Under the pieces are notes generated by a model. That model was not told the origin of the DNA. It saw only the letters and a list, made by a program, of their open reading frames with translations, and searched no databases. DNA of 64,000 nt from Micromonospora radicis (GTDB lineage: Bacteria > Actinomycetota > Actinomycetes > Mycobacteriales > Micromonosporaceae): the NCBI RefSeq assembly GCF_003583405.1, contig NZ_QXEC01000002.1, forward strand, positions 407,378-471,377, in the 5' to 3' direction. The position numbers were made by a program, and so were the translations under genes. Below, piece by piece: positions 17,749 through 31,229 of the stretch; within the stretch, counting starts at the first letter, position 1; each line of letters starts with the position of its first letter.

Positions 17749-19794
17749 GTGACGCCTGCTGAGACCCGCGCCGCATCGCCGCCGGATTCCGACGACGCCG
17801 CGGGCTCGCCGTCCGAACCCGTCACCCAGGGTGAGGGTACGCGGGCCACGCCGCCCGCCACCGGCACGCCGGCCCCGGATGCGTCGCCGATCGATGTGTC
17901 GCCGAGCAAGTCGTCGGCGGGCGCGGTGGTGGCCGGCCCGGCGCCGACCGTGGTGGCCGTCGGCCGGGTCGGCGAGCCGGAACCGACTGTGGACGCCGGT
18001 GCGGCCGGGGACGCGGCGGACGCCGACCGGGCGGCTCCGGCGCGCCGGTTCCGGTTCCGGTGGACGCCGCGCCGGGTGGACCTCGCGGTCTTCGGTGGCT
18101 TCCTGCTGGTCGCGATCTGGGTGACCAGCCAGATCTGGGCGGATCCGGCCGGTCGGGTCGCCTCTCTCTACAGCAGTGACCCGGCTCAGGTGCAGTTCTT
18201 CCTGGCCCACTCGGTGCGGGTGGTGCTGCACGGGGAGTTCCCGTTCTTCACCGAGCAGTTCAACTATCCCGACGGGGTCAACCTGATGGCCAACACGGCC
18301 ATCCTGGCGCTGGGCATCCCGATGGTGCCGGTGACCCTGCTGTTCGGACCGGCGGTGACCTTCGTGGTGCTGGTCACGCTGGCGCTCGCGGGCACCGCGT
18401 CGGCCTGGTACCACGTGCTCTCCCGGCACGTGGTGAACAACCGGCTGGCGGCCGTGGTGGGTGGCTGGTTCTGCGGCTTCTCACCGGCGATGCTGTCGCA
18501 CGCCAGTTGGCATCCGAACATCATCAGCCAGTTCCTGCTGCCGTTCATCGTCTGGCGGGTCATGGTGATCACCCGCTCGACGCGGCCGTACCGGGACGGG
18601 GCGCTGCTGGCGCTGCTGGTCACCGCGCAGGCGTTCATCAACGAGGAGATCCTGCTCTTCACCGCGATGGGCTGCGGCATCTTCCTGATCGCGGTGGTCG
18701 TCCAGCGTCCCGCGCTCTGGTCGACGGCCTGGCGTCCGCTGGGCAAGGCGGTGGCGACCTGCACGGTGATCGCCGGCACGCTGCTGGCGTACCCGCTGTA
18801 CATCCAGTTCGCCGGGCCGATGGCGTACCACGGTCTCAGCGACGCGGTACGCGACTACGGCAACGACATCGCCGCGTACTTCGCCCCGGGCTCGCCGACC
18901 ATCGGCGGCAACCAGCGGGCGAACGTCAACCTCGCGCCGAACTACTCGGAGGAGAACGCCTTCTTCGGTTGGAGCCTGGCGTTGATCGCGGTCGGGATCG
19001 TCCTCTGGCTCCGCCGGGAGGTGCTGGTCCGGGCGCTCGCCGCGACCGCCGCCTTCTACACCATCCTCTCCCTCGGCGAGCGGATCACCTGGTGGGACCG
19101 GGAACTGGTGGTCGGGCCGTGGGAGTGGCTGGTCCGGCTGCCGCTGCTCGACGCGGTGGTACCGACCCGGTTCGGCATGATCACGAGCGTGGTGGTGGCG
19201 ATCCTGCTCGCCCTGGCGATCGAGCGCAGCCGGTCGCTGCCGCTGGACCCCCGGACCCTGCGTACGCTGACCGCCGGTGGCCTGGTGCTGGCGCTGCTGC
19301 CGATCGCACCGATGCCGCTGCCGATGACCTCCCGGCCGCCGGTTCCCGAGTTCATCACCTCCGACCGTTGGCGCGACTACGTCGGCCCGGACCAGACGTT
19401 GGTGCCGATCCCGGTGCCGAGCATGGGCAACACCCACGGGATGCGCTGGGCCGCGGCCACCAACCTCGACTTCAAGATCCCGGGCGGCTACTTCCTCGCC
19501 CCGCGTAACGGCAACACCGGTGACCCGGGCCGGTTCGGTGGCCGACCCAGCGGCATCGGCCGGCTGCTGGAGGGTGTCGCGACGACCGGCCGTACTCCCG
19601 AGTTGGACGACCGGCAGCGGCGCCGCTGCCTGGACGAGCTGCGGCACTGGCGGGCCGCGGTCCTGGTGCTGCCGGTACGCCAGCCGCACTCCGAACCGCT
19701 GCGGCAGACCGTCGAGCAGTTGGTCGGCCCGGCCCGCCTCGAACTGGACGTCTGGGTGTGGGACGTGCGGGCGTTGACCGACCCGGCGGTCTGA
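17749..19794 (+). CDS. Multi-pass membrane protein, GT-C glycosyltransferase-like, paralogue 1
   Basis: The 681-residue protein has a Pro/Ala-rich cytoplasmic N-terminus of about 100 residues, about 11 membrane segments, and a C-terminal soluble domain ending in LELDVWVWDVRAL. Shared with two paralogues in this window are YPDGVNLMANTA, FINEEILLF, SEENAFFGW, VVPTRFGM and RHWRAAVLVLP. The topology, a large loop after the first segment and a soluble C-terminus resemble GT-C polyprenyl-phosphate-dependent glycosyltransferases, but I see no diagnostic catalytic motif beyond scattered acidic residues. The stop codon overlaps the next ATG (TGATG), so paralogues 1 and 2 are one operon. Function is unproven. 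Confidence 0.75.
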   Translation: MTPAETRAASPPDSDDAAGSPSEPVTQGEGTRATPPATGTPAPDASPIDVSPSKSSAGAVVAGPAPTVVAVGRVGEPEPTVDAGAAGDAADADRAAPARRFRFRWTPRRVDLAVFGGFLLVAIWVTSQIWADPAGRVASLYSSDPAQVQFFLAHSVRVVLHGEFPFFTEQFNYPDGVNLMANTAILALGIPMVPVTLLFGPAVTFVVLVTLALAGTASAWYHVLSRHVVNNRLAAVVGGWFCGFSPAMLSHASWHPNIISQFLLPFIVWRVMVITRSTRPYRDGALLALLVTAQAFINEEILLFTAMGCGIFLIAVVVQRPALWSTAWRPLGKAVATCTVIAGTLLAYPLYIQFAGPMAYHGLSDAVRDYGNDIAAYFAPGSPTIGGNQRANVNLAPNYSEENAFFGWSLALIAVGIVLWLRREVLVRALAATAAFYTILSLGERITWWDRELVVGPWEWLVRLPLLDAVVPTRFGMITSVVVAILLALAIERSRSLPLDPRTLRTLTAGGLVLALLPIAPMPLPMTSRPPVPEFITSDRWRDYVGPDQTLVPIPVPSMGNTHGMRWAAATNLDFKIPGGYFLAPRNGNTGDPGRFGGRPSGIGRLLEGVATTGRTPELDDRQRRRCLDELRHWRAAVLVLPVRQPHSEPLRQTVEQLVGPARLELDVWVWDVRALTDPAV

Positions 19795-21608
19795 TGCCGG
19801 TCGGCACCGCCGAACGTCCCGCCGAGGTCACCGCCGCCCGGCGCCGGTGGCTGCCCCGCCGGGCTCCGGATCTGGTGGTGGTGTTCGGCTATCTGGCGCT
19901 CGCCGGGTGGCTGAGCAGCCGGCAGTGGGGCCGGCCGGACCGGCTGTTCCACCAGGCCGGCGACCAGATCCTCTTCGAGTGGATGCTGGCCCGGGCGGCG
20001 CGGGCGGTGCTCGGCGGGGAGGACCCGTTGTGGAGTGACGCGTTGAACGCCCCCGGCGGGGTGAACCTGATGGCCAACACCTCGGTACTCGGCCTGGGGA
20101 TACCGCTGACTCCGGTCACCGCGCTGTTCGGCTCGCAGACCGCCTTCCTGGTGGCGGTGGTGGGCTGCCTGGCCGGTACGGCGACCACCTGGTACGTCCT
20201 GCTGCGCCGGCGCCTGGTCGAGTCCCGGTGGGCCGCCGCCGTCGGCGGGCTGGTCTGCGGCTTCGCCCCCGGCATGGTGGCCCAGGCCGGGGCGCACCTG
20301 CATATGGCCGCCCAGTTCCTGGTGCCGGTGATCCTGGCCCTGCTCTTCCGCCCCGAGCCAGCCGCCGCCCGAGCCGCCGACGACGCCGCCCGAGGCACGG
20401 GCCGGGGCGGTGGGGTGTGGTGGCCCGGGGTGCTGCTCGGGCTGGTGGTCACCTACCAGGTCTTCCTCGGCGAGGAGGTGCTGTTCTTCGTGGCGCTGGC
20501 CGCCGGGGTGTTCGTGTTCGGGTATGCGCTGGCCGACCGGGCGGCGGCCCGTCGGCTCGCCCCGGCCGTGGCCGGTCGGGTCGGCGTGGGTGCGGCGGTG
20601 GCGGGCGGGCTGCTGGCGTACCCGTTGTGGTTCCAGTTCTTCGGTCCGGGGCACTACCGGGGGATGCCGTTCCACGCGTACGGCTACCAGCTCGACGCGG
20701 CGTCCTTCACCGCGCCGGCCCGGCAGACCGTGTTCGGTGACCAGCGTCCGCCGGGCCTGCTGGCGCCCAACCTGACCGAGGAGAACTCCTTCTTCGGGCC
20801 GGTGCTGCTGGTGCTCGCCGTGGTCGTCACGATCTGGCTGTGGCGCCGCCCGCTGGTCCGGGCCCTGGCCGGATGCGGGGTGCTGTTCGCCCTGCTCTCG
20901 CTCGGCACGCCGGTACGCCTCGACGGGGCGCTCACCGAGTTGACCGGCCCGTACCGGCTGGTCGCCGGGTTGCCGCTGGTCGACCACGTGGTGCCGGCCC
21001 GGTTCGCGTTGGTCTGCGTACCGGTGCTGGGCATCCTGGTGGCCCTGAGCGTGGACCGGATCCGGTCCGTCGGCCGGGCGCCGGTGCGGGCGCTGGGGGC
21101 CGCCGCGGTGGCCGTCGCCCTGCTGCCGCTGGTTCCGACGCCGATCCGGACCGTGCCGGTCGGGCCGGTGCCGGCGTTCGTCGCCGAGGGCATCTGGCGG
21201 GAGTACGTGCCGGCCGGTCGGACCCTGGTGGCGGTGCCGCCGGTCACCAACGCCGGTCGCAGTCCGGCGATGCTCTGGTCGGCCCGGACCGGGCTGGCCT
21301 TCACCGCACCGGGTGGCTTCTTCATCGGCCCGGTGGCCGCGGACGATCCGACGGCCCGCTGGGGCGCCCCGGACCGGCCCACCTCGGTACTGCTGCGTCG
21401 GGTGGCCGACACCGGTGAGGTGCCGTCGGTCACCGAGGCCGACCGTCGGCAGGCGGTGGCGGACCTGCGGCACTGGCGGGCGGCGGTGGTCGTGCAGAGT
21501 GGACTGTCGACCGGCGAACCGGTGCGGCGTACCGTCGAGGCGCTGCTCGGTCCGGCCCGGCGGATCGACGACGCGCTGGTCTGGGACGTCCGCCCGCTGG
21601 TCGGCTGA
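19794..21608 (+). CDS. Multi-pass membrane protein, GT-C glycosyltransferase-like, paralogue 2
   Basis: The 604-residue protein resembles its upstream neighbour but lacks the long N-terminal extension. Matching blocks are APGGVNLMANTSVLGLGIPL, VFLGEEVLFF, TEENSFFGPVLLV, HVVPARFAL and LRHWRAAVVV, and it ends DDALVWDVRPLVG. About 11 membrane segments are visible. The ATG overlaps the previous TGA by one base, which implies translational coupling and possibly a heteromeric pair. Function is unproven, as for paralogue 1. Confidence 0.75.
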   Translation: MPVGTAERPAEVTAARRRWLPRRAPDLVVVFGYLALAGWLSSRQWGRPDRLFHQAGDQILFEWMLARAARAVLGGEDPLWSDALNAPGGVNLMANTSVLGLGIPLTPVTALFGSQTAFLVAVVGCLAGTATTWYVLLRRRLVESRWAAAVGGLVCGFAPGMVAQAGAHLHMAAQFLVPVILALLFRPEPAAARAADDAARGTGRGGGVWWPGVLLGLVVTYQVFLGEEVLFFVALAAGVFVFGYALADRAAARRLAPAVAGRVGVGAAVAGGLLAYPLWFQFFGPGHYRGMPFHAYGYQLDAASFTAPARQTVFGDQRPPGLLAPNLTEENSFFGPVLLVLAVVVTIWLWRRPLVRALAGCGVLFALLSLGTPVRLDGALTELTGPYRLVAGLPLVDHVVPARFALVCVPVLGILVALSVDRIRSVGRAPVRALGAAAVAVALLPLVPTPIRTVPVGPVPAFVAEGIWREYVPAGRTLVAVPPVTNAGRSPAMLWSARTGLAFTAPGGFFIGPVAADDPTARWGAPDRPTSVLLRRVADTGEVPSVTEADRRQAVADLRHWRAAVVVQSGLSTGEPVRRTVEALLGPARRIDDALVWDVRPLVG

Positions 21609-21654: not shown

Positions 21655-22320
21655 GTGAGTGACGTGGCCGCGACGCCGACGGACGGCGAGCTGGAGAGTG
21701 TCAGTCTGGTCGACCTTGCCGTCGCCCGGCTGACCCGGGAGATCCTCAGCGGCCGGAGCGACCCGGGCGAACGACTGGTGGAGGAGCAGCTGACCCGGCG
21801 GCTCGGGATCAGCCGGGCGCCGTTGCGCGAGGCGCTGCGGCTGCTGGCGCAGCGCGGGCTGGTCGAGCACGTGCCCCGGCGCGGGGTCCGGGTCGCCACC
21901 CTCTCCGACCGGGACGTCCAGGAGCTGTACGAGCTGCGCGACGTGCTGGAGCGGTTCGCGGTGCGGGCGGGGATCCCGGTGGCCGGAGAGAGCGAGCTGG
22001 CCGGGTTGGGGGCCGCGCTGGACCAGATGCGCGAGGCGACCCGCGCCGGTGACCGGCTGGCGGTAGCCGAGTCGCACCGGGCGTTCCACGTCGCGCTGGT
22101 GGCGCTGGCCGGCAACCGTCAGCTCTCCGGGGTGTACGAGTCGATCCTGGTGAAGTTGCAGCTCTACATGGCGATCAACCTGCGCCGCGAGGCGGAGGTG
22201 GCGCAGCCGCTGGACGGGGTGCACCGGCACGAGCGGCTCTACGCCGCGGTCGTCGGGGGAGACCCGGAGGACGTCCTCGCGGTGCTCTCCGAACACGGGG
22301 CGCGTTCGTACCTCCGGTGA
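21655..22320 (+). CDS. GntR-family transcriptional regulator with FCD domain
   Basis: The 221-residue protein has an N-terminal winged helix (LTREILSGRSDPGERLVEEQ, then RLGISRAPLREALRLLAQRG) and a C-terminal all-helical FCD ligand-binding domain (about 90-215) with AESHRAFHVALVALAGNRQL. FCD regulators usually repress nearby catabolic genes and release DNA on binding a small metabolite. It lies 102 bases upstream of the allophanate hydrolase gene in the same direction and is the obvious candidate regulator of that operon. The start is GTG 21655; CAGACT sits 7 bases upstream, suggesting a leaderless transcript. Confidence 0.88.
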   Translation: MSDVAATPTDGELESVSLVDLAVARLTREILSGRSDPGERLVEEQLTRRLGISRAPLREALRLLAQRGLVEHVPRRGVRVATLSDRDVQELYELRDVLERFAVRAGIPVAGESELAGLGAALDQMREATRAGDRLAVAESHRAFHVALVALAGNRQLSGVYESILVKLQLYMAINLRREAEVAQPLDGVHRHERLYAAVVGGDPEDVLAVLSEHGARSYLR

Positions 22321-22406
22321 GGCCTGGCCGCCCCGCCCGCGTCGAGGCCCCGCCGGACCGCCGTCATCTCGTCGTTACCTGCCGTGCCGACGCTCGAAAC
22401 AGAACG

Positions 22407-22419
22407 GTCGACAATCGAC
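22407..22419. promoter_or_regulatory. Candidate operator overlapping the allophanate hydrolase promoter
   Basis: GTCGA-CAA-TCGAC is a perfect 5-bp inverted repeat with a 3-base centre, ending 3 bases before the ATG at 22423. The -10-like GACAAT (22410-22415) lies inside it. A regulator bound here would block a leaderless transcript; the adjacent GntR protein is the likely candidate. Confidence 0.5.
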
Positions 22420-22422
22420 TGT

Positions 22423-24372
22423 ATGCCAGAGCGGATCGGATCCATCTCGGAGTTGCGTGCGGCGTACCGCGACGGCCGGCTCACCCCGGTCGACCTGGCC
22501 GAACGCGTCCTGGACGGGCTCGCCGGGCGGGACCGGGAGCCGGTCTGGATCAGCACGGTCGCCGGCAACGAGCTGCGGGCCCGCGCCGCCGAGTTGACCC
22601 GCGACGGCGATCCGGCGGCCCTGCCGCTGTACGGCATCCCGTTCGCCGTCAAGGACAACATCGACGTGGCCGGCATGATCACGACCGCGGGCTGTCCCGA
22701 CTTCGGGTACCGGGCCACCGAGGACGCCCCGGTGGTGCGGCGACTGCTCGACGCCGGTGCCCTGCTGGTCGGCAAGACCAACCTCGACCAGTTCGCCACC
22801 GGCCTGACCGGTGCCCGCTCGCCGTACGGCAGCTGCGAGAGCGTCTTCGGCGGCGGGCTCGTCTCGGGCGGGTCCAGCTCCGGTTCGGCGGTCGCGGTCG
22901 CCGCCGGCCAGGTCTGCTTCGCCCTCGGTACGGACACCGCCGGATCCGGCCGGGTACCGGCGGCGCTGAACGGGATCGTCGGCGTCAAACCCACCCGTGG
23001 CCTGCTCAGCACGGCCGGGGTGGTGCCGGCCTGCCGGTCGCTGGACTGTGTCTCCGTCTTCGCCACCGACGTCGCCGGTGCGATGCGGGTGTGGCACGCC
23101 GCGCGTGGGATGACGGCGGCCGACCCGTGGGGGCGTCCGCTGCCGGCGGAGCGGGTGGATGCCCGCATGCCCGGGACGCTACGCCTCGGCACCCCCCGCA
23201 CAGAAGAGCTGGACTTCTTCGACGACGCCGGTCAGGCGGTCCGGTTCGCGGCCGGTGTCCGGCGGCTGCGGGGGCTGGTCGGTGCCGCCCGACCGGTGCC
23301 GCTCGCGCCCTTCCTGGCGGCGGGCGACCTGCTCTACCAGGGGCCGTGGGTGGCCGAGCGGCTGGCCGCGCTGGACGGCTTCCTGCGCGCGCGTCCCGAC
23401 TCGGTCCTCCCGGTCACCCGGGCGGTGTTGGAGACCGGGCGGCGCTACGACGCGGCCGACGCCTTCCGGGGTCAACACCGCCTGCGTGAGCTGCGCGCCC
23501 AGGTCGACCGGCTCTGGCAGGAGATCGACGTGCTGGTGCTACCGACCGTCGGTACGACGTTCACCCTCGACGAGATCGCCGCCGACCCGATCGGGCGCAA
23601 CACCACGCTCGGCCGGTACACCCAGTTCGCGAACCTGCTCGACCTGGCCGCGGTGACCGTGCCGAACGGGTTCACCGCCGCCGGTCGCCCGGCCAGCCTC
23701 ACCCTGATCGGCCCCGCGTTCAGCGACACCACCCTGGCCCGACTCGCCACCGCCTTCACCACCACCGGCGGCGACTCGGCGACCGACCCGGCCCGTGGTC
23801 CGGACGAGCCGACTCGCGGCCCGGCGGCCCCGGCCGCTGCCCGGACGTCAACTGATCAAGCGGCGGCCGACCAGCCGGCGGGCACGTCGGCCCAGGTGCT
23901 GCTCGCCGTCGTCGGCCGGCACCTGGCCGGCGAGTCACGCAACGCGGAACTGGTCGAGCTGGGAGCCACCCTGGCTGGCGCCGCCCGCACCGCGCCGCTC
24001 TACCGGCTCTACCGGCTGGACAGCGCCGACGGCGTCGGGTTGCCGGGGCTGGTCCGGGTCGCCTCGACGGCACCGGACGGACACCCGATCGAGGTCGAAC
24101 TCTGGCGGCTGTCCGGCTCCGCCGTCGGTCGGCTGCTGGCCCGGGTACCGGCGCCACTCTCGCTCGGCTGGGTCCGGCTGCACGACGGGCGCGACGTGCT
24201 CGGGTTCCTCTGCGAGGCGTACGCCGCCGGTCCCGACGCGGAGGACATCAGCGCCACCGGCGGGTGGCGTGCGTACCGGCGGACGGTCGGGGCCGTCCGC
24301 GACCCGGGACACCCCGGTTCGGCGGAGACGACGACAGGAGGAGAGCGAGGATGGGCAGCATCGGGCCGGTGA
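22423..24372 (+). CDS. atzF: Allophanate hydrolase (AtzF-like)
   Basis: Allophanate hydrolase splits allophanate to ammonia and carbon dioxide, the last step of biuret, cyanuric acid or urea-carboxylase pathways. The 649-residue protein has an amidase-signature domain (about 1-450) with catalytic Lys in FAVKDNID, the Ser-rich GGSSSGSAVAVAAGQ and ALGTDTAGSGRVPAA, then a Pro/Ala-rich linker and a C-terminal AtzF-type domain (about 490-610) with GRHLAGESRNAEL and LYRLYRLDS. No urea carboxylase gene is nearby, so allophanate probably comes from biuret. The ATG at 22423 has no ribosome-binding site and may head a leaderless mRNA. Its 3' end overlaps the next gene by 22 bases. Confidence 0.92.
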   Translation: MPERIGSISELRAAYRDGRLTPVDLAERVLDGLAGRDREPVWISTVAGNELRARAAELTRDGDPAALPLYGIPFAVKDNIDVAGMITTAGCPDFGYRATEDAPVVRRLLDAGALLVGKTNLDQFATGLTGARSPYGSCESVFGGGLVSGGSSSGSAVAVAAGQVCFALGTDTAGSGRVPAALNGIVGVKPTRGLLSTAGVVPACRSLDCVSVFATDVAGAMRVWHAARGMTAADPWGRPLPAERVDARMPGTLRLGTPRTEELDFFDDAGQAVRFAAGVRRLRGLVGAARPVPLAPFLAAGDLLYQGPWVAERLAALDGFLRARPDSVLPVTRAVLETGRRYDAADAFRGQHRLRELRAQVDRLWQEIDVLVLPTVGTTFTLDEIAADPIGRNTTLGRYTQFANLLDLAAVTVPNGFTAAGRPASLTLIGPAFSDTTLARLATAFTTTGGDSATDPARGPDEPTRGPAAPAAARTSTDQAAADQPAGTSAQVLLAVVGRHLAGESRNAELVELGATLAGAARTAPLYRLYRLDSADGVGLPGLVRVASTAPDGHPIEVELWRLSGSAVGRLLARVPAPLSLGWVRLHDGRDVLGFLCEAYAAGPDAEDISATGGWRAYRRTVGAVRDPGHPGSAETTTGGERGWAASGR

Positions 24373-25040
24373 CGGCCAACCCCTACCCGTGGCCGTACGA
24401 CGGCGTGGTGGACACCGCGCGTACCGCGGTGCTCTGCATCGACTGGCAGACCGACTTCTGTGGACCGGGCGGCTACGTCGACACGATGGGCTACGACATC
24501 AGCCTCACCCGGGCCGGACTGCCCGCCACCGCCCGGCTGCTGGCGCACGTCCGCTCCCTCGGGATGCTGGTCGTGCACACCCGCGAGGGTCACGACCCCG
24601 ACCTGTCCGACCTGCCGGCCAACAAACGGTGGCGCTCGGCGCGGATCGGCGCCGAGATCGGCGGCGCGGGGCCCTGCGGCAGGATCCTGGTGCGGGGCGA
24701 GCCGGGGTGGGAGATCGTGCCGGAGGTCGCCCCGGTGCCCGGCGAGGTGGTCGTCGACAAGCCGGGCAAGGGCGCCTTCTACGCCACCAACCTCGACCTG
24801 GTGCTGCGTACCCGGGGCATCACCCACCTGATCCTCACCGGCATCACCACCGACGTCTGCGTGCACACCACCATGCGCGAGGCGAACGACCGGGGCTACG
24901 AGTGCCTGATCCTCTCCGACTGCACCGGCGCCACCGACAAGGGCAACCACGACGCGGCGCTGCACATGGTGACCATGCAGGGCGGGGTGTTCGGCTGCGT
25001 GGCCACCTCCGACGACGTCATCGCCGCCACCACCGAATGA
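24351..25040 (+). CDS. Isochorismatase-fold cysteine hydrolase 1 (biuret/triuret hydrolase type)
   Basis: The 229-residue protein has the catalytic triad of the isochorismatase-like amidohydrolases: Asp in LCIDWQTDF, Lys in [11 protein letters not shown] and Cys in [19 protein letters not shown]. Biuret hydrolase (BiuH) and triuret hydrolase belong to this family and are found with AtzF. Here a second paralogue follows 9 bases later, so one may remove a carbamoyl unit from triuret or carboxybiuret and the other from biuret; I cannot tell which is which. The ATG follows AGGAGGAGAG and lies inside the end of the allophanate hydrolase gene. Confidence 0.88.
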   Translation: MGSIGPVTANPYPWPYDGVVDTARTAVLCIDWQTDFCGPGGYVDTMGYDISLTRAGLPATARLLAHVRSLGMLVVHTREGHDPDLSDLPANKRWRSARIGAEIGGAGPCGRILVRGEPGWEIVPEVAPVPGEVVVDKPGKGAFYATNLDLVLRTRGITHLILTGITTDVCVHTTMREANDRGYECLILSDCTGATDKGNHDAALHMVTMQGGVFGCVATSDDVIAATTE

Positions 25041-25049
25041 GGTGAAGCA

Positions 25050-25742
25050 ATGCCGACCATCACCGCCGCGCGGCCCGCGGCGTACGCGTTCGACCTGCAC
25101 ACCACCGCGCTGCTCGTCATCGACATGCAGCGGGACTTCCTGGAGCCGGGTGGCTTCGGCGAGAGCCTGGGCAACGACGTCGGCCAGCTGCGCCGCACCA
25201 TCGGGCCGCTCACCGCGTTGCTGGCCGGCGCCCGGGCGGCCGGCCTGACCGTGCTGCACACCCGCGAGGGGCACCTGCCCGACCTCTCCGACTGCCCACC
25301 GGCCAAACTCGAACGGGGGGCGCCGAGCCGGCGCATCGGCGATCCCGGCCCCAACGGCCGGATCCTGATCCGGGGCGAGTACGGCCACGACATCGTCGAC
25401 GAGCTGGCTCCGCTGCCCGGTGAACCGGTGATCGACAAGCCCGGCAAGGGTGCCTTCTACGCCACCGGACTGGACGAACTGCTCGCCGAGCGGAACGTCC
25501 GCAGCCTCCTGGTCACCGGGGTCACCACGGAGGTGTGCGTACACACCACCGTCCGGGAGGCCAACGACCGCGGGTACGAGTGTCTCGTGCTCGCCGACTG
25601 CGTCGGGTCCTACTTCCCCGAGTTCCAGCGGGTCGGGCTCGACATGATCGCCGCCCAGGGCGGGATCTTCGGGTGGGTCGCCGACTCCATGGACGTGCTC
25701 GCCGTGCTGCCCACCACCCCCGTGTTGCAACCCTCCTCCTGA
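25050..25742 (+). CDS. Isochorismatase-fold cysteine hydrolase 2 (biuret/triuret hydrolase type)
   Basis: The 230-residue paralogue of the preceding gene has Asp in LVIDMQRDF, Lys in [11 protein letters not shown] and Cys in [19 protein letters not shown]. The substrate-side segment differs ([13 protein letters not shown] instead of CTGATDKGNHDAA), which suggests a different substrate. Cytoplasmic biuret or triuret hydrolysis is the most economical role given the downstream allophanate step. The ATG at 25050 follows AGGTGA and begins 9 bases after the previous stop. Confidence 0.88.
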
Positions 25743-25754
25743 CCGGGAGCAGCC

Positions 25755-27455
25755 ATGGTCCCCAGCAGAACCCCCACCGCCGCACTGCCCTACTGGGTAC
25801 GCGGCGACACCAACGCGTTCTTCGGCTTCGGCGTCAACGTCCTGGTCAACGTGCTCACCCTGACCGGGCTCTGTCTGTTCGTGGTGAACCTCCCCGAGCG
25901 GGAGGTCTTCGGCACCATCCTGCCGGCGCTCGGCATCGCTTTGGTCGCCGGCAACGTCTACTACACGTACCTGGCCCGACGGCTGGCCCGGCGGGAGCAC
26001 CGCGGCGACGTGACGGCGCTGCCGTACGGGCCGAGCGTGCCGCACATGTTCATCGTCATCTTCGTCATCATGTTGCCGATCTTCCTGCGCACCGGAGATC
26101 CGCTGCGCGCCTGGGAGGCCGGCCTGGCCTGGGCCTTCATCATCGGCGTGATCGTGTTGATCGGCGCCTTCGTCGGGCCGTACATCCGCCGGTTCACCCC
26201 CCGGGCCGCGTTGCTCGGCACCCTCGCCGGCATCTCCATCACCTTCATCTCGATGAACCCGGCCGGGCAGATGTGGCGGATGGCCTGGATCGCCCTGCCG
26301 GTCCTCGCGCTGCTGCTGATCGGCCTGCTCACCGACGTGAAGCTGCCGTTCAACTTCCCGATCGGGCTGGCCGCCCTGCTGCTCGGCACGGCGATCGGCT
26401 GGCTCGGCGGGGCGATGTCGGTGCCGGACGTCACGGCGGCCGCGCGGGACATCGCGTTCGCCTTCCCCACCTTCCAGTTCGACCTGCTGTGGCGCGGCCT
26501 GACGGACATGGCGCCGCTGCTGGCGACCGCGATCCCGCTCGGCGTCTACAACTTCACCGAGGCGATGACCAACGTGGAGAGCGCGGCGACCGCCGGGGAC
26601 AACTACAACCTGCGCAGCGTCCTGCTCGCCGACGGCGCCGGCGCGGTGATCGGCTCCGCGCTCGGTTCCCCCTTCCCGCCGGCCGTCTACGTCGGTCACC
26701 CGGGCTGGAAGGCCGCCGGTGGCCGGACCGGCTACTCGATGGCCACCGGCGTGATCATCGCGTTGCTCTGCTTCCTCGGGATGTTCTCGCTGCTCGGCGC
26801 GATCTTCCCGACCGCCGCGATCGTGCCGATCCTGCTCTACATCGGGCTGTTGATCGGTGCCCAGGCGTTCCAGGCCACCCCCCGGGCACACGCGGCGGCC
26901 GTGGTGGCGGCGCTGATCCCGAACATCGCGGCCTGGGCGACCGGGCAGATGAACAACGCCCTGGCGGCAGCCGGCACCAGCGCCGCCGAGGTCGGCGACG
27001 AGGCCCTCGCCGGCGCCGGAGTGGTCTACGACGGGCTGCGGGTGCTCGGCGAGGGTGCCATCCTCGCCGGCCTGGTGCTCGGTGCGATCGTCGTCTTCAT
27101 CATCGACAAACGCTTCGCCCGCGCGGCCGTCTTCGCCGCCGTGGGTGCGCTGCTCGCCTTCGTCGGCCTGATCCACGGCGAGGAGGTCCAGTGGAACGCC
27201 AACGGTCAGGTCGCCCTCGGCTACCTCTTCGTGGCGGTGGTCTGCGGGATCTTCGCGCTCGGCAAGTACCCGCCCCGGGTGCCCGAACCCGAGGAGATCG
27301 AACTGGACCGCCAGCACGGCGGCGGCACCACCGACACCGCAGTGCCGGTGCCGGCCGTCGCGGCGGGGGCCGGGGCGCCGGCCGGTACCGAGGCGACTTC
27401 CGCGCCGGCCGATCCGGTCGACGGTGGGAAGCGTGAGCCGGCGGTGAGCGGCTGA
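25755..27455 (+). CDS. Purine/uracil permease-like (NCS2-type) membrane transporter
   Basis: The 566-residue protein has about 13 membrane segments and a soluble C-terminal tail. Motifs such as TALPYGPSVPHMF, GVYNFTEAMTNVESAATAGD and SPFPPAVYVGHPGWKA fit the NCS2/AzgA-like permease superfamily, in which the Asn-x-Glu-Ser segment lies near the substrate site. In this operon it should import the nitrogen compound used by the hydrolases, probably a flat, urea-like molecule such as biuret. The ATG follows GGGAGC 12 bases after the previous gene. The subfamily assignment is moderate and the substrate is inferred from context. Confidence 0.75.
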   Translation: MVPSRTPTAALPYWVRGDTNAFFGFGVNVLVNVLTLTGLCLFVVNLPEREVFGTILPALGIALVAGNVYYTYLARRLARREHRGDVTALPYGPSVPHMFIVIFVIMLPIFLRTGDPLRAWEAGLAWAFIIGVIVLIGAFVGPYIRRFTPRAALLGTLAGISITFISMNPAGQMWRMAWIALPVLALLLIGLLTDVKLPFNFPIGLAALLLGTAIGWLGGAMSVPDVTAAARDIAFAFPTFQFDLLWRGLTDMAPLLATAIPLGVYNFTEAMTNVESAATAGDNYNLRSVLLADGAGAVIGSALGSPFPPAVYVGHPGWKAAGGRTGYSMATGVIIALLCFLGMFSLLGAIFPTAAIVPILLYIGLLIGAQAFQATPRAHAAAVVAALIPNIAAWATGQMNNALAAAGTSAAEVGDEALAGAGVVYDGLRVLGEGAILAGLVLGAIVVFIIDKRFARAAVFAAVGALLAFVGLIHGEEVQWNANGQVALGYLFVAVVCGIFALGKYPPRVPEPEEIELDRQHGGGTTDTAVPVPAVAAGAGAPAGTEATSAPADPVDGGKREPAVSG

Positions 27456-27544
27456 GCCGGTCGGGCCCTCGGGTCGGGTGGACCCTGGACCGGGTGGACG
27501 CCGGGCCGTGGACGACCTCGGCCGGGGAAGAGAGGACGTACCGC

Positions 27545-27922
27545 ATGGAGATCGACCGGCCGGACGTGGTCGCCGAGGTGACCGCGGCCTTCACGGGCTA
27601 CGAGCAGGCCCTGGTCGACGGGGACGCCGACCGGATCTGCGACTACTTCTGGGATTCCGACCGGACGGTGCGCTTCGGCGTCGCCGACCACCAGTACGGC
27701 CTCGACGCGCAGCGCAAGTGGCGCTGGGCGCAACCGCCGCTGCCGCCGGGCCGCCGGTTGGTCGACCCGGTGGTCAGCACCTTCGGCCCCGACCTCGCGG
27801 TGGTCACCGTCCGGTTCGGCTACCCCGGTGACCCCGTCAGCGGCCGGCAGACCCAGACCTGGGTACGCCTGCCGGTCGGCTGGCGGATCGTCACCGCCCA
27901 CGTCTCGACGGTCGCCGGCTGA
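27545..27922 (+). CDS. AtzH-like DUF3225 (SnoaL-fold) protein
   Basis: The 125-residue protein matches the AtzH/DUF3225 pattern from the cyanuric acid gene cluster: MEIDRPDVVAEVTAAFTGYE at the start, then YFWDSDRTVRFG and QTWVRLPVGWRIVTAHVS. AtzH proteins adopt an NTF2/SnoaL-like fold and accompany allophanate hydrolase and related amidases; their role is not clear to me. The ATG at 27545 follows GAGAGGAC. Its presence strengthens the reading of this operon as an AtzF-type biuret pathway. A perfect palindromic terminator follows. Confidence 0.85.
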   Translation: MEIDRPDVVAEVTAAFTGYEQALVDGDADRICDYFWDSDRTVRFGVADHQYGLDAQRKWRWAQPPLPPGRRLVDPVVSTFGPDLAVVTVRFGYPGDPVSGRQTQTWVRLPVGWRIVTAHVSTVAG

Positions 27923-27976: not shown

Positions 27977-29824
27977 TCAGACCCGGTCGCGTACGTCCCA
28001 GAGCCACACGTCGTCGACCCGCTGCGGCTCACCGAGCAGGGCGGTCATCAGCTCACGCAGCACCGCCTCCTTGGGATGGGCGCCGAGTACCACCACCGAG
28101 GCCCGCCAGAAGCGGAGGTCCTCCACCGCCTGCCGGCGGTTCTCGTCGGTCAGTTCGGGCAGCGCACCGGCGTCCATGCTGCGGTAGATCAGGGTGCTGG
28201 TGGGCCGGTTCGGTGCGCCGAAGACACCCTCGCCGTCGAGGTTGGGGCCGATGAAGTAGCCGGCCGGGATCGGGAACTGGTGCTGGGTCAGCGCGCTCCA
28301 GCGCAACGTGGACAGACCGTGCACGTTGCTCGGGATGGGCACCGGCACCAGCGTGTGGCCGTCCGGCACGTACGGCTGCCAGGCGCCGGAGGTGATGAAG
28401 GCCGGCGGCGGGTCGACCGGCTCGGCCGGCAGCGGGGTGGGGATCAGCGGTACCACGGCCGCCGCGACGGCGACGTACCCGATCGGCCGCCGCCAGCGCG
28501 ACCACCGGCGTTCGGCGGCGGGCTCGGGGGTACGCGGCGCCGGCACCGGCGGGCGGCCGTTGCCGGCGACCGCGTCCCAGGCCAGGGCGAGCAGTACGCC
28601 GAGCGCGGCGGTGGTCACCAGGGTCAGCCGGGTCGGCATCATCATCTCGACCAGCGGCAGGTCCTCCGGGATGTACGACCACGGGCCGGGGATCCCGGTC
28701 AGCGCGCCGTTGAACCGGATCTCCGGACCGAGCGCGGCGACGGAGAAGAGCACCACCAGTACGGCGAGGATCCGGGCCACCAGCGACCGGCGGACCAGCA
28801 ACGCCAGGGCCACCACCGACAGCAGCACCAGCGGCCAGCCGAACCAGGTGTTCTGCTCGGTCAGCCCGATGGTCGCCTCCACCGCCTCGTTGCCGGCGAT
28901 GGTGTCGCGGGGGAAGGTGACGAAGGCGACGACGTCCTCGCCCCAACTGTGGAACACCCCGCCCTGCAAGCCGCGGTAGGACTGCGGGCCGTTGAACTGG
29001 AACCAGATCGGGTAGGCGGTCAGCAGCAGGGCCAGGCCGCCGCCGAGGCCCAACCCGGCGGCGAAGGTGCCGGCCCGTTCCCGCGCCGCACGTGGCCGCA
29101 TGACCGCGTACGCGATCACGATGACCAGGCAGGCCATCGCCGTGAGCAGCAGCATCTCCTCGTTGATGAAGATCTGGTACGCCACCAGCAGGCCCAGCAC
29201 CAGCCCGTTGCGCCGCCACCGGCCCGGCTCGGCCAACCGGAACACCCGCACCACGATCAGCGGGAGCAGGAAGTTGGAGACGAAGTTGGGCTGCCCGTTG
29301 GCGTGGTGCACGATGCCGGGGGCGAACCCGAGGAAGCCGCCGCCGACGAAGGCCGCGGCCCGCGAGCGCACCAGGTGCCGCGACAGCATCCAGTACGCGG
29401 TGCCGGCGGTCGCGGCCAGCGCACCACCGAGGTACAGCGCGTACACCACCTGCGGGCCGAGCAGCCAGGTGAGGGGCGCCAACGGCAGGGTCACCCCGAG
29501 CAGCGAGGTGTTGGCCATCATGTTCACCCCGTCGGGGGCGTTCTGCTGCGTACTGAACAGCGGGTTCTCCAGGTTGCGCACCGAGTACGCACCGTGCGAG
29601 AAGAGCCACTCGAACCAGCTGTGGTCGGTGGGCAGGTGGGACGAGACGCGGTTGTTCACGTCCACCCAGTAGTTGAGGCAGACGACGACACCGAGCAGCA
29701 CGTAGGCTCCGATGACCAGCACGTCGGCCCGGTGCGGCCGGCGTCGGGGACGCCGTGTTTCCGCTTCCGCCTCGACGGTCGGGGAGACGGGATTCAGCGA
29801 GGGATCTACCACCGGCACAGCCAC
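27977..29824 (-). CDS. Multi-pass membrane protein, GT-C glycosyltransferase-like, paralogue 3
   Basis: The 615-residue protein shares the family blocks seen at 17749 and 19794: APDGVNMMANTSLLGVTLPL, IFINEEMLLL, TEQNTWFGWPLVL, MMMPTRLTLV and RFWRASVVVLG, and it ends VDDVWLWDVRDRV. It has about 11 membrane segments and a soluble C-terminus. It lies on the other side of the biuret-type operon and in the opposite orientation. The GTG at 29822-29824 lies 8 bases after TACGAT, so the mRNA is probably leaderless; the frame extends further but into the divergent region. Function is unproven. Confidence 0.75.
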   Translation of the reverse strand: MAVPVVDPSLNPVSPTVEAEAETRRPRRRPHRADVLVIGAYVLLGVVVCLNYWVDVNNRVSSHLPTDHSWFEWLFSHGAYSVRNLENPLFSTQQNAPDGVNMMANTSLLGVTLPLAPLTWLLGPQVVYALYLGGALAATAGTAYWMLSRHLVRSRAAAFVGGGFLGFAPGIVHHANGQPNFVSNFLLPLIVVRVFRLAEPGRWRRNGLVLGLLVAYQIFINEEMLLLTAMACLVIVIAYAVMRPRAARERAGTFAAGLGLGGGLALLLTAYPIWFQFNGPQSYRGLQGGVFHSWGEDVVAFVTFPRDTIAGNEAVEATIGLTEQNTWFGWPLVLLSVVALALLVRRSLVARILAVLVVLFSVAALGPEIRFNGALTGIPGPWSYIPEDLPLVEMMMPTRLTLVTTAALGVLLALAWDAVAGNGRPPVPAPRTPEPAAERRWSRWRRPIGYVAVAAAVVPLIPTPLPAEPVDPPPAFITSGAWQPYVPDGHTLVPVPIPSNVHGLSTLRWSALTQHQFPIPAGYFIGPNLDGEGVFGAPNRPTSTLIYRSMDAGALPELTDENRRQAVEDLRFWRASVVVLGAHPKEAVLRELMTALLGEPQRVDDVWLWDVRDRV

Positions 29825-29906
29825 GACGGGCCATCGTACAGGCGGGCGCCGGGGATCCCCGACGGCCGTGAGGGGCCGCGTGTGGCGCGCGGCGGGGAGG
29901 ACGAGC

Positions 29907-31229
29907 GTGACGCTGATCGACCTCGGTGACCTGTCCGGGCCGACCACAACCGAGCCGACGGCGCGGCGGCGCCCGGCCGGGTTGCGGCGTCGGGCCGCCG
30001 GCCGGTGGTGGTCGATCGGGTTGGTGACGGTGGCCGCGCTGGTGGCGCTGGCCGGTGCCGCGCCGCCCGGCACGCGGGTGCACGCGACGGTGCCGGCCGC
30101 TCTGGGGTCGGAGTTGTTCCTCGCCGAGGAGTACATCTTCACCATCACCCCGGCGCCCCGGGTGACCGACGGCACGCAGGAACTCGCCGCCTACCCCCGG
30201 CCGACCCGGGCCACCGTCGCACCGCGGCAGCTGACCGCACTGTGGCGGATCCCGGTGCCGCCCGGGCACCGCTTCTACCGGGTGGAGACCGTCGCCGGTG
30301 ACGGCGTGCTGCTCGCCATGGTGCCGCCAGGGAATACCGGCGGCGACAGCCAGACCGTGTTGCTGGACGTGCGTACCGGGCAGGAACGGTGGCGGACCGT
30401 CGGGTTCGGTACGCCCGACCCGTCGGGCCGGGTACTGCTGCAGACGTTCGGCTTCGAGGAACCGATGACGCTGCGCGCGGTCGACCTGGCCGACGGTCGC
30501 GAGCTGTGGTCGACCACCTCGCCGCCGGGCTGGTTGCAGCACCACTGGCGGGACGGGGTGATCGACGCCATCGTGCTGTCCACCAACGCCGGTGACGTCG
30601 ACGTGCTCGACGCGACCACCGGCGAGGTTCGGCACCGGCTGCCCCGAAGCGCCGCCCATCCGTCCGCCTACCAGCAGTCGTCGCTGGTCGGAGACCTGGT
30701 GCTGGTGGTCAGCAACTCGCGGGTCGTCACCGCGTACGGCATCGACGGGTTGGTGCGGCGCTGGCAGACCACCCTGCCGCTGGCCGAACAGGTGACCCGG
30801 TGCGGGGAGCTGCTCTGTGTCCAGGCCGGCGGTGGCGGCACGCACGTCCTCGACCCGGCCACCGGCGCGCTCCGGTGGCGCACCGACGTGGACGCCGAAC
30901 TGCTGCGCGTCACGGGCGCCCGCGGCCTGGCACAGCTACGCGGCAGCCCCGGCCGGGAACTGGTGCTGCTCGACTCGGCCACCGGCGCGGTGCTGACCGA
31001 CTACGCCGCCTGGGCCTCGGTCGCCTCCTACGAGCAGGAGCAGGAGCTGTACGGGGTGCACACGATCCCCGAGGTGGGCCTCGTGCTGGCCCGGCTCGAC
31101 CCGGCGCAGGCACAGCCGCGCCGGCTCGACGTGCTGGCCGGCGCGGCCGGCGGCTGCCAGAGCCGCGACGGCCTGATCGGCTGCCGCCGCCACGACGGCG
31201 GGTTCGGCGTGTGGCAGCTGCCGGAGTGA
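29907..31229 (+). CDS. Membrane-anchored PQQ-type beta-propeller protein
   Basis: The 440-residue protein has a basic N-terminus, one membrane segment (about residues 36-55) and an extracytoplasmic domain with repeated propeller blades: LLDVRTGQERWRT, AVDLADGRELWSTTS, VLDATTGEVRHRL, VLDPATGALRWRTDVD and LLDSATGAVLTDY. These match PQQ-like repeats, although binding of the cofactor is not implied. Two cysteines near the end (GCQSRDGLIGCRR) may form a disulfide. The GTG at 29907 follows GGGGAGG. It is divergent from paralogue 3 and may share a cell-surface role. Confidence 0.8.
   Translation: MTLIDLGDLSGPTTTEPTARRRPAGLRRRAAGRWWSIGLVTVAALVALAGAAPPGTRVHATVPAALGSELFLAEEYIFTITPAPRVTDGTQELAAYPRPTRATVAPRQLTALWRIPVPPGHRFYRVETVAGDGVLLAMVPPGNTGGDSQTVLLDVRTGQERWRTVGFGTPDPSGRVLLQTFGFEEPMTLRAVDLADGRELWSTTSPPGWLQHHWRDGVIDAIVLSTNAGDVDVLDATTGEVRHRLPRSAAHPSAYQQSSLVGDLVLVVSNSRVVTAYGIDGLVRRWQTTLPLAEQVTRCGELLCVQAGGGGTHVLDPATGALRWRTDVDAELLRVTGARGLAQLRGSPGRELVLLDSATGAVLTDYAAWASVASYEQEQELYGVHTIPEVGLVLARLDPAQAQPRRLDVLAGAAGGCQSRDGLIGCRRHDGGFGVWQLPE

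Follow-up and report, generated by a model that had tools for sequence, protein, structure and literature searches.

A run of six genes in Micromonospora radicis appears to equip this actinobacterium for the use of triuret and biuret as nitrogen sources. The genes lie between positions 21655 and 27922, all on the plus strand, of a window of 64,000 nucleotides (contig NZ_QXEC01000002.1, positions 407,378 to 471,377). They encode, in this order, a GntR-type regulator, the allophanate hydrolase AtzF, the biuret hydrolase BiuH, a hydrolase of the triuret hydrolase (TrtA) type, a permease and an AtzH-like protein. With a probability that we put at about three in four, the enzymes release ammonia and CO2 from triuret and biuret for nitrogen supply, with the permease serving in import, the AtzH-like protein decarboxylating an intermediate and the GntR protein exerting control. 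Growth on triuret or biuret as a nitrogen source is likely because the enzymes are closely similar to ones known to split triuret, biuret and allophanate.

In the proposed sequence of steps, the permease would bring triuret or biuret into the cell. By analogy with the Herbaspirillum enzyme, TrtA would hydrolyze triuret at one terminal amide to ammonia and carboxybiuret, and the AtzH-like protein is predicted to speed up the loss of CO2 from carboxybiuret to biuret. BiuH would then cleave biuret to allophanate and ammonia, and AtzF would complete the route by converting allophanate to ammonia and CO2. The regulator is predicted to sit on a palindrome abutting atzF and to release it once a compound of the pathway binds.

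Two paralogous hydrolases of the BiuH and TrtA types

The 229-residue product of biuH (24351-25040, plus strand) scores 421.5 bits with the curated BiuH model NF050097 (cut-off 370), and its best solved relative is a biuret hydrolase, 6xjm (E 2e-120). The product of trtA (25050-25742, plus strand; 230 residues) stays below the cut-off of the same model with 265.9 bits, and the solved structure closest to it is 6xix, TrtA of Herbaspirillum (E 9e-80, 61% identity). Among the best 119 relatives listed for the 25050 protein, identity ranges from 80 to 92%, and those at the top that carry a name belong to Micromonospora. Residues separating TrtA from its relatives have been named for the Herbaspirillum enzyme (PMC7948467; cited here, like PMC6219798 and PMC12625717 below, from part of its text), and all 13 residues that were checked match in the 25050 protein. 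In Herbaspirillum numbering, it has Phe35, Asn41, Glu160, Tyr187, Gln202, Ile205 and the triad Asp24, Lys129 and Cys162, each displaced by +1, such that its own triad reads Asp25, Lys130 and Cys163. The 24351 protein carries the BiuH set Tyr, Tyr, Asp, Thr and Val along with an Asp-Lys-Cys triad. The complete triads that the original prediction, made from the DNA letters alone, had seen in both proteins are thus present, and the two segments by which it told the enzymes apart do distinguish them: CVGSYFPEF contains the specificity tyrosine of TrtA, and CTGATDKGN contains the threonine of BiuH.

For a broader comparison, a set of 151 loci was assembled, each with a TrtA-type gene. Eighty of these are the top-ranking ones among 579 confirmed places for the TrtA of the window and are biased towards its own clade. 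Eleven plasmid loci were picked by hand from search matches, one of them (L006) having been found via the permease. Searches of whole genomes contributed 20 loci from the window's own family (61 of 200 genomes positive), 30 from the proteobacterial family containing Pelomonas, which we take to be the Burkholderiaceae in GTDB terms (102 of 399 positive), and ten from the class containing Solimonas (at most 13 of 369 positive). The 61 positive genomes of the own family are spread over 11 of its 44 genera, and each of them also has a second match of the BiuH type. The TrtA paper puts triuret hydrolase in 1-2% of recorded genomes (PMC7948467).

Five discriminating places read Phe, Asn, Glu, Tyr and Ile in 92 of 93 TrtA-type rows and Tyr, Tyr, Asp, Thr and Val in 25 of 26 BiuH-type rows, the exceptions being rows in L006 and L066 (119 rows in total, 116 from loci L001-L091 and the window and three references). 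A quick maximum-likelihood tree built from 112 rows gathers the BiuH rows in a single clade (36 rows, Shimodaira-Hasegawa-like approximate likelihood ratio test (SH-aLRT) support 99) that includes both crystallized BiuH enzymes and the 24351 protein; the latter falls into an actinobacterial BiuH clade together with RhdBiuH (12 rows, SH-aLRT 99). The 25050 protein is placed outside the BiuH clade, within an actinobacterial TrtA clade (24 rows, SH-aLRT 98), and the deeper branching order of the TrtA rows is poorly resolved. Phylogenetic comparison with BiuH and TrtA thus came out as the assignment of two different substrates would have it. The BiuH family assignment of the 24351 protein is strong, with predicted activity on biuret, and the reading that this protein would cleave biuret and the 25050 protein triuret is well supported by sequence comparison. 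Two other identities were rejected for both hydrolases. With 115.9 and 114.7 bits they stay below the cut-off of the model for the ureidoacrylate hydrolase RutB (TIGR03614, 377.95 bits), and their scores for nicotinamidase are likewise below curated cut-offs.

A route from triuret via biuret to allophanate, as originally predicted, is supported by the hydrolase model, structure, residue and tree evidence. It requires refinement in that it includes carboxybiuret as an intermediate and had already been published: TrtA-BiuH-AtzF operons are known in Herbaspirillum and Rhizobium, the two-step route and its chemistry have been described, and formation of ammonia and carboxybiuret from triuret has been demonstrated for Herbaspirillum TrtA (PMC7948467). 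Since such operons are published for these two genera, the pathway as such is known, and the operon in the window represents an actinobacterial variant of it.

Allophanate hydrolysis and the fate of nitrogen

The gene atzF (22423-24372, plus strand) encodes a complete allophanate hydrolase of 649 residues with an amidase domain and an allophanate hydrolase C-terminal (AH_C) domain (PF01425 and PF21986). It exceeds the cut-off of TIGR02713 (674.5 versus 511.05 bits) and matches the solved structure 4gyr with E 3e-147. Urea carboxylase, originally noted as absent from the run of genes, was likewise not found in the whole genome, where no match exceeded the curated cut-off and merely parts of biotin-dependent carboxylases were hit (best 507.7 versus 1303.85 bits). 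A urea carboxylase route is thereby ruled out. Cyanuric acid as the entry substrate is also ruled out, because the genome yielded no match for cyanuric acid hydrolase with a query that was positive in both of two control genomes. For urease alpha, one match was found in the genome.

Of 23 trtA loci with neither biuH nor atzE nearby, 19 encode an AtzF-type amidase without the AH_C domain (L014, L015, L017, L019, L024-L027, L029, L030, L032-L035, L039, L040, L042, L047 and L063), most of them with gntR and the permease gene. The same was seen in five of 39 biuH loci without atzE, at least one of the five being clipped by the end of the locus.

The AtzH-like protein as a candidate carboxybiuret decarboxylase

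Carboxybiuret decays by spontaneous loss of CO2 (half-life about 20 minutes), and an enzyme for this decarboxylation, TrtB, has been reported (PMC7948467). The accessible text of PMC7948467 and PMC12625717 gives no family name for TrtB. The latter paper describes putative triuret genes for nitrifiers; its abstract gives trtA, biuH and atzH, and its text gives atzF and trtB, possibly a slip. When Herbaspirillum TrtA was searched in one proteobacterial family, no near-identical match emerged, the best being 72-73% identical.

The last gene of the operon (27545-27922, plus strand, with an alternative GTG start at 27494) encodes an NTF2-fold protein of 125 residues that matches PF11533 (E 5e-41) and the solved AtzH 6bjt (E 8.5e-26). 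A protein search with a BiuH-linked AtzH-like query returned no telling names among the relatives. Genes for AtzH-like proteins and for cupins are present in 65 and 12 of the 151 loci, respectively, and never in one locus. A cupin gene follows trtA in the Rhizobium and Sulfitobacter loci examined, whereas the window has the AtzH-like gene instead; in Pseudomonas luteola, too, an AtzH-like protein is found in the cupin's place. Among the 60 loci with BiuH and without AtzE, 41 have an AtzH-like protein, 11 a cupin and eight neither. An AtzH-like protein accompanies BiuH plus AtzE in 15 of 17 loci and AtzE alone in nine of nine. The 65 loci with neither BiuH nor AtzE contain no AtzH-like protein and a single cupin.

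Sequence comparison of 69 AtzH-like rows (66 from the loci and the window, three references; positions as in PMC6219798) revealed Tyr22, Arg46, Arg63, Arg73, Gln106 and Gln108 in every row. In the window protein, Arg66 is replaced by Gln and Arg96 by Tyr. Rows with AtzE (24 loci and two references labeled from the AtzH paper) retain Arg66 in 25 of 26 cases, the exception being L059, and Arg96 equally in 25 of 26. Rows with BiuH only retain Arg66 in one of 42 cases (L220, in which an AtzE fragment extends past the end of the locus) and Arg96 in eight of 42. With a stricter label that counts only an adjacent AtzE gene on the same strand, Arg66 is retained in 23 of 24 versus three of 44 rows. The window protein thus has Tyr22 and Arg46 of AtzH but neither the complete arginine-rich pocket, to which Arg66 and Arg96 also belong, nor an operon with AtzEG, both further marks of AtzH. 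We therefore file it as AtzH-like only, given Gln and Tyr at positions 66 and 96 and an operon free of atzE.

In the published cascade, 1,3-dicarboxyurea is the likely substrate of AtzH (PMC6219798), and the AtzH-like protein could use it here as well if BiuH acted on carboxybiuret to form 1,3-dicarboxyurea, which would then be decarboxylated to allophanate as thought for AtzH of Pseudomonas sp. ADP. Such a route would demand no new activity of AtzH and would agree with the membership in PF11533 and the conserved catalytic Tyr and Arg. We nevertheless regard it as unlikely, because the two arginines typical of AtzE-linked AtzH rows are lost in the window protein, the model NF033625 (HpxZ) is narrowly missed (132.9 versus 135 bits) and the operon has no AtzE. 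Decarboxylation of carboxybiuret is predicted instead, since the catalytic Tyr and Arg are kept, the AtzE-linked Arg66 and Arg96 are given up and the place of the cupin is occupied. A loss of pocket arginines is what would be expected from a change of substrate, as 1,3-dicarboxyurea carries two carboxylates and carboxybiuret one. We tentatively go one step further, with a confidence that falls somewhat short of even odds: an AtzH-fold carboxybiuret decarboxylase, having given up Arg66 and Arg96 for a one-carboxylate substrate and filling the place of the cupin, may, with ureide importers of a new family and a conserved GntR operator, make up a complete, transportable actinobacterial triuret module. 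The Arg66/Arg96 pair could explain, through two residues, the use of a single small fold in two pathways.

TrtA-type genes outside the triuret-to-biuret context

A number of observations speak against the triuret-to-biuret pathway with an AtzH-like decarboxylase as proposed here. Neither BiuH nor AtzE is in reach in 65 of the 151 TrtA-type loci. Thirty genomes were searched for BiuH; a match of BiuH grade (at least 66% identity) was found in 14, in four of them beside trtA, and none in the other 16. Even in the window's own family, the permease is missing behind trtA in two of the 20 longer and four of the 30 short loci, and atzF is not nearby in five of the 20 longer ones. BiuH and a decarboxylase gene co-vary in about four of six independent pairs, which is not significant (median p 0.125) in a test of low power. 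For Arg66, two changes suffice on the tree, with one well-supported independent pair and likewise low power for a link with AtzE, so its loss may reflect the history of one subfamily rather than repeated adaptation. Variants at Arg66 and Arg96 are also not among the AtzH variants listed with reduced effect in the accessible part of PMC6219798.

The many TrtA loci and genomes without BiuH indicate that the pair of TrtA and permease may serve beyond the triuret-to-biuret route. Taken to its conclusion, the second hydrolase and the permease would handle another ureide, and BiuH and AtzF would form a plain biuret pathway alongside. Besides the frequency of the pair without BiuH, the six loci in which TrtA-type genes adjoin allFGH-type genes and a distant permease relative among xanthine dehydrogenase genes would fit this explanation. 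We consider it improbable, because the TrtA specificity residues are all present in the 25050 protein and because BiuH is replaced in nine loci by AtzE and AtzH. Carboxybiuret is the published entry compound of the latter pair, in agreement with its formation by TrtA.

The nine loci with TrtA, AtzE and AtzH and no BiuH nearby are L001, L002, L004, L058, L059, L078, L170, L210 and L222; in these, the triuret route is predicted to run via 1,3-dicarboxyurea rather than biuret. In favor of the main reading, the enzyme set of the window, likewise without AtzE but with an ABC transporter in place of the permease, is present in six proteobacterial loci (L164, L165, L169, L176, L218 and L221). In the loci of the allFGH type (L005, L006, L037, L048, L076 and L213), the TrtA-type gene lies next to genes for FdrA, DUF1116 and mostly DUF2877, and five of the six have a carbamate kinase. 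A phosphorolytic branch yielding carbamoyl phosphate is possible for them. In the plasmids collection, 77 Escherichia plasmid records have a TrtA-type match with E no higher than 1e-60; in L005, the Escherichia plasmid region examined, the trtA-type gene product is 64% identical and the gene is located with the allFGH-type genes.

The permease as a putative ureide importer

The permease gene (25755-27455, plus strand; 566 residues) lies directly behind trtA, as do its relatives in 98 of the 151 loci. It matched no family in Pfam or NCBIfam. The original classification as NCS2-like stands on a weak likeness only: a profile of the family resembles the guanine/hypoxanthine permease GhxQ of E. coli with probability 68 over 102 columns, and none of the 38 family members matches the Pfam NCS2 model. 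Similarity to UacT is not meaningful (probability 0.2), and among solved chains there was one match at chance level (E 0.72) with the single sequence and none with the 38-row profile. The hydropathy profile is ragged, and a number of membrane helices cannot be read from it. A family without a Pfam model that is paired with trtA is new here.

With regard to transporters, 98 loci have the permease only, 43 a BMP-type ABC transporter only, two both and eight neither. A tree-based pair test of this alternation had too few pairs for significance (median p 0.25). In a reverse search, the permease was detected in six of 296 genomes of the window's phylum; besides the window's own genome, trtA lies within 1.5 kb in three of these and not in two. 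One relative with 37% identity adjoins genes for xanthine dehydrogenase and guanine deaminase, and the wider permease family is therefore not solely devoted to ureides. The idea that the permease imports purines, with triuret or biuret arising inside the cell via urate oxidation, draws on this neighborhood, on the weak match to GhxQ and on relatives named xanthine/uracil permease in source records, and it has little probability in our view, as none of the six operon genes encodes an enzyme of purine breakdown and the alternation with ABC transporters near trtA, albeit not significant, fits import of the pathway substrate. Import of triuret or biuret by the permease is thus the likely function.

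Gene arrangement and a candidate GntR operator

The regulator gene gntR (21655-22320, plus strand) encodes a protein of the FCD subtype (PF00392, E 4e-15; PF07729, E 2e-23) and lies outside the region 22407 to 27922 to which the operon had originally been assigned. The description as one run of six genes with gaps of 9-102 bases or overlaps proved correct. The spacing is 102 bases between gntR and atzF, nine between biuH and trtA and 12 between trtA and the permease gene; atzF and biuH overlap by 22 bases, and 89 bases separate the permease gene from the atzH-like gene (38 when counted from the GTG start). This arrangement is beyond chance in the window's own family, where biuH and trtA occur together in 30 of 30 short loci, the window's own genome included. 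All 20 longer loci of the family have gntR, which precedes biuH in each, as well as biuH, trtA and atzH, and 18 have the permease and 15 atzF.

In actinobacteria, the stretch from gntR to the enzyme gene that follows it contains the core GTCGACAA in 44 of 45 cases. With up to three mismatches allowed, 48 of 57 actinobacterial loci, counting the window, contain a palindrome of the type CTGTCGA-CAA-TCGACAG; this count is not independent, as many of these loci also served to define the palindrome. It was present in one of 95 other loci and in none of 60 shuffled sequences derived from 20 loci. In most loci it precedes whichever of atzF, biuH and trtA comes first. The 17-base copy in the window (22405-22421, plus strand) ends one base before the start codon of atzF. 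This position suggests that the atzF message may be leaderless, with its start covered by the regulator. The window's own 16-base site, used as a pattern, recurred at two more places in the window with three mismatches, close to the 1.05 expected by chance. Judging from these sequence patterns, the palindrome is likely the GntR operator, and the GntR protein is likely the repressor of the operon.

Comparison with known systems

Triuret enters soil with urea fertilizer and also arises from urate oxidation, and genes for its breakdown have been described for proteobacteria. An actinobacterial triuret gene set is now given by this operon and by its counterparts, which occur in 61 of 200 family genomes. 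Growth of a Corynebacterium on triuret has been mentioned, its enzymes not being known at the time (PMC7948467). Among the matches listed for triuret with Actinobacteria or transporters in the literature, most subscription papers being outside the scope, no such actinobacterial operon is described.

The closest counterpart is the triuret pathway of Herbaspirillum sp. BH-1 and Rhizobium, with trtA, biuH and atzF and a reportedly co-occurring trtB (PMC7948467). It shares with the window the same paralogous hydrolase pair with the published residues, and AtzF, in one operon. In contrast, the operon in the window is actinobacterial and has a conserved palindrome before its first enzyme gene. Whereas Rhizobium, Sulfitobacter, Enterobacter, Pseudomonas luteola and many further proteobacterial loci have a BMP-type ABC transporter, the window has a permease of another family. 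AtzH of Pseudomonas sp. ADP, encoded in the atzDGEHF operon (PMC6219798), belongs to the same Pfam family as the window protein, which shares Tyr22, Arg46 and most of the pocket but differs by Arg66Gln and Arg96Tyr and sits with TrtA and BiuH instead of AtzE, AtzG and AtzD. RhdBiuH of Rhodococcus sp. Mel (6xjm) is the closest solved BiuH and shares the actinobacterial clade; its gene reportedly neighbors that for cyanuric acid hydrolase, and the genome lacks trtA (PMC7948467), whereas here biuH has trtA as its neighbor and the genome yielded no cyanuric acid hydrolase. New here are the trtA-linked permease family, the AtzH-like protein in the cupin's place and the conserved palindrome before the first enzyme gene. 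The comparison reduces the entry of triuret and the removal of CO2 from carboxybiuret to single-gene questions.

The operon sits between three paralogous long proteins encoded at 17749-19794 (plus strand), 19758-21608 (plus strand) and 27977-30175 (minus strand), which are 37-41% identical to one another and belong to no Pfam family. At E 1e-20, no relative of these proteins was found beside the operon in any of 25 related loci, an indication that the site of the operon differs between genomes.

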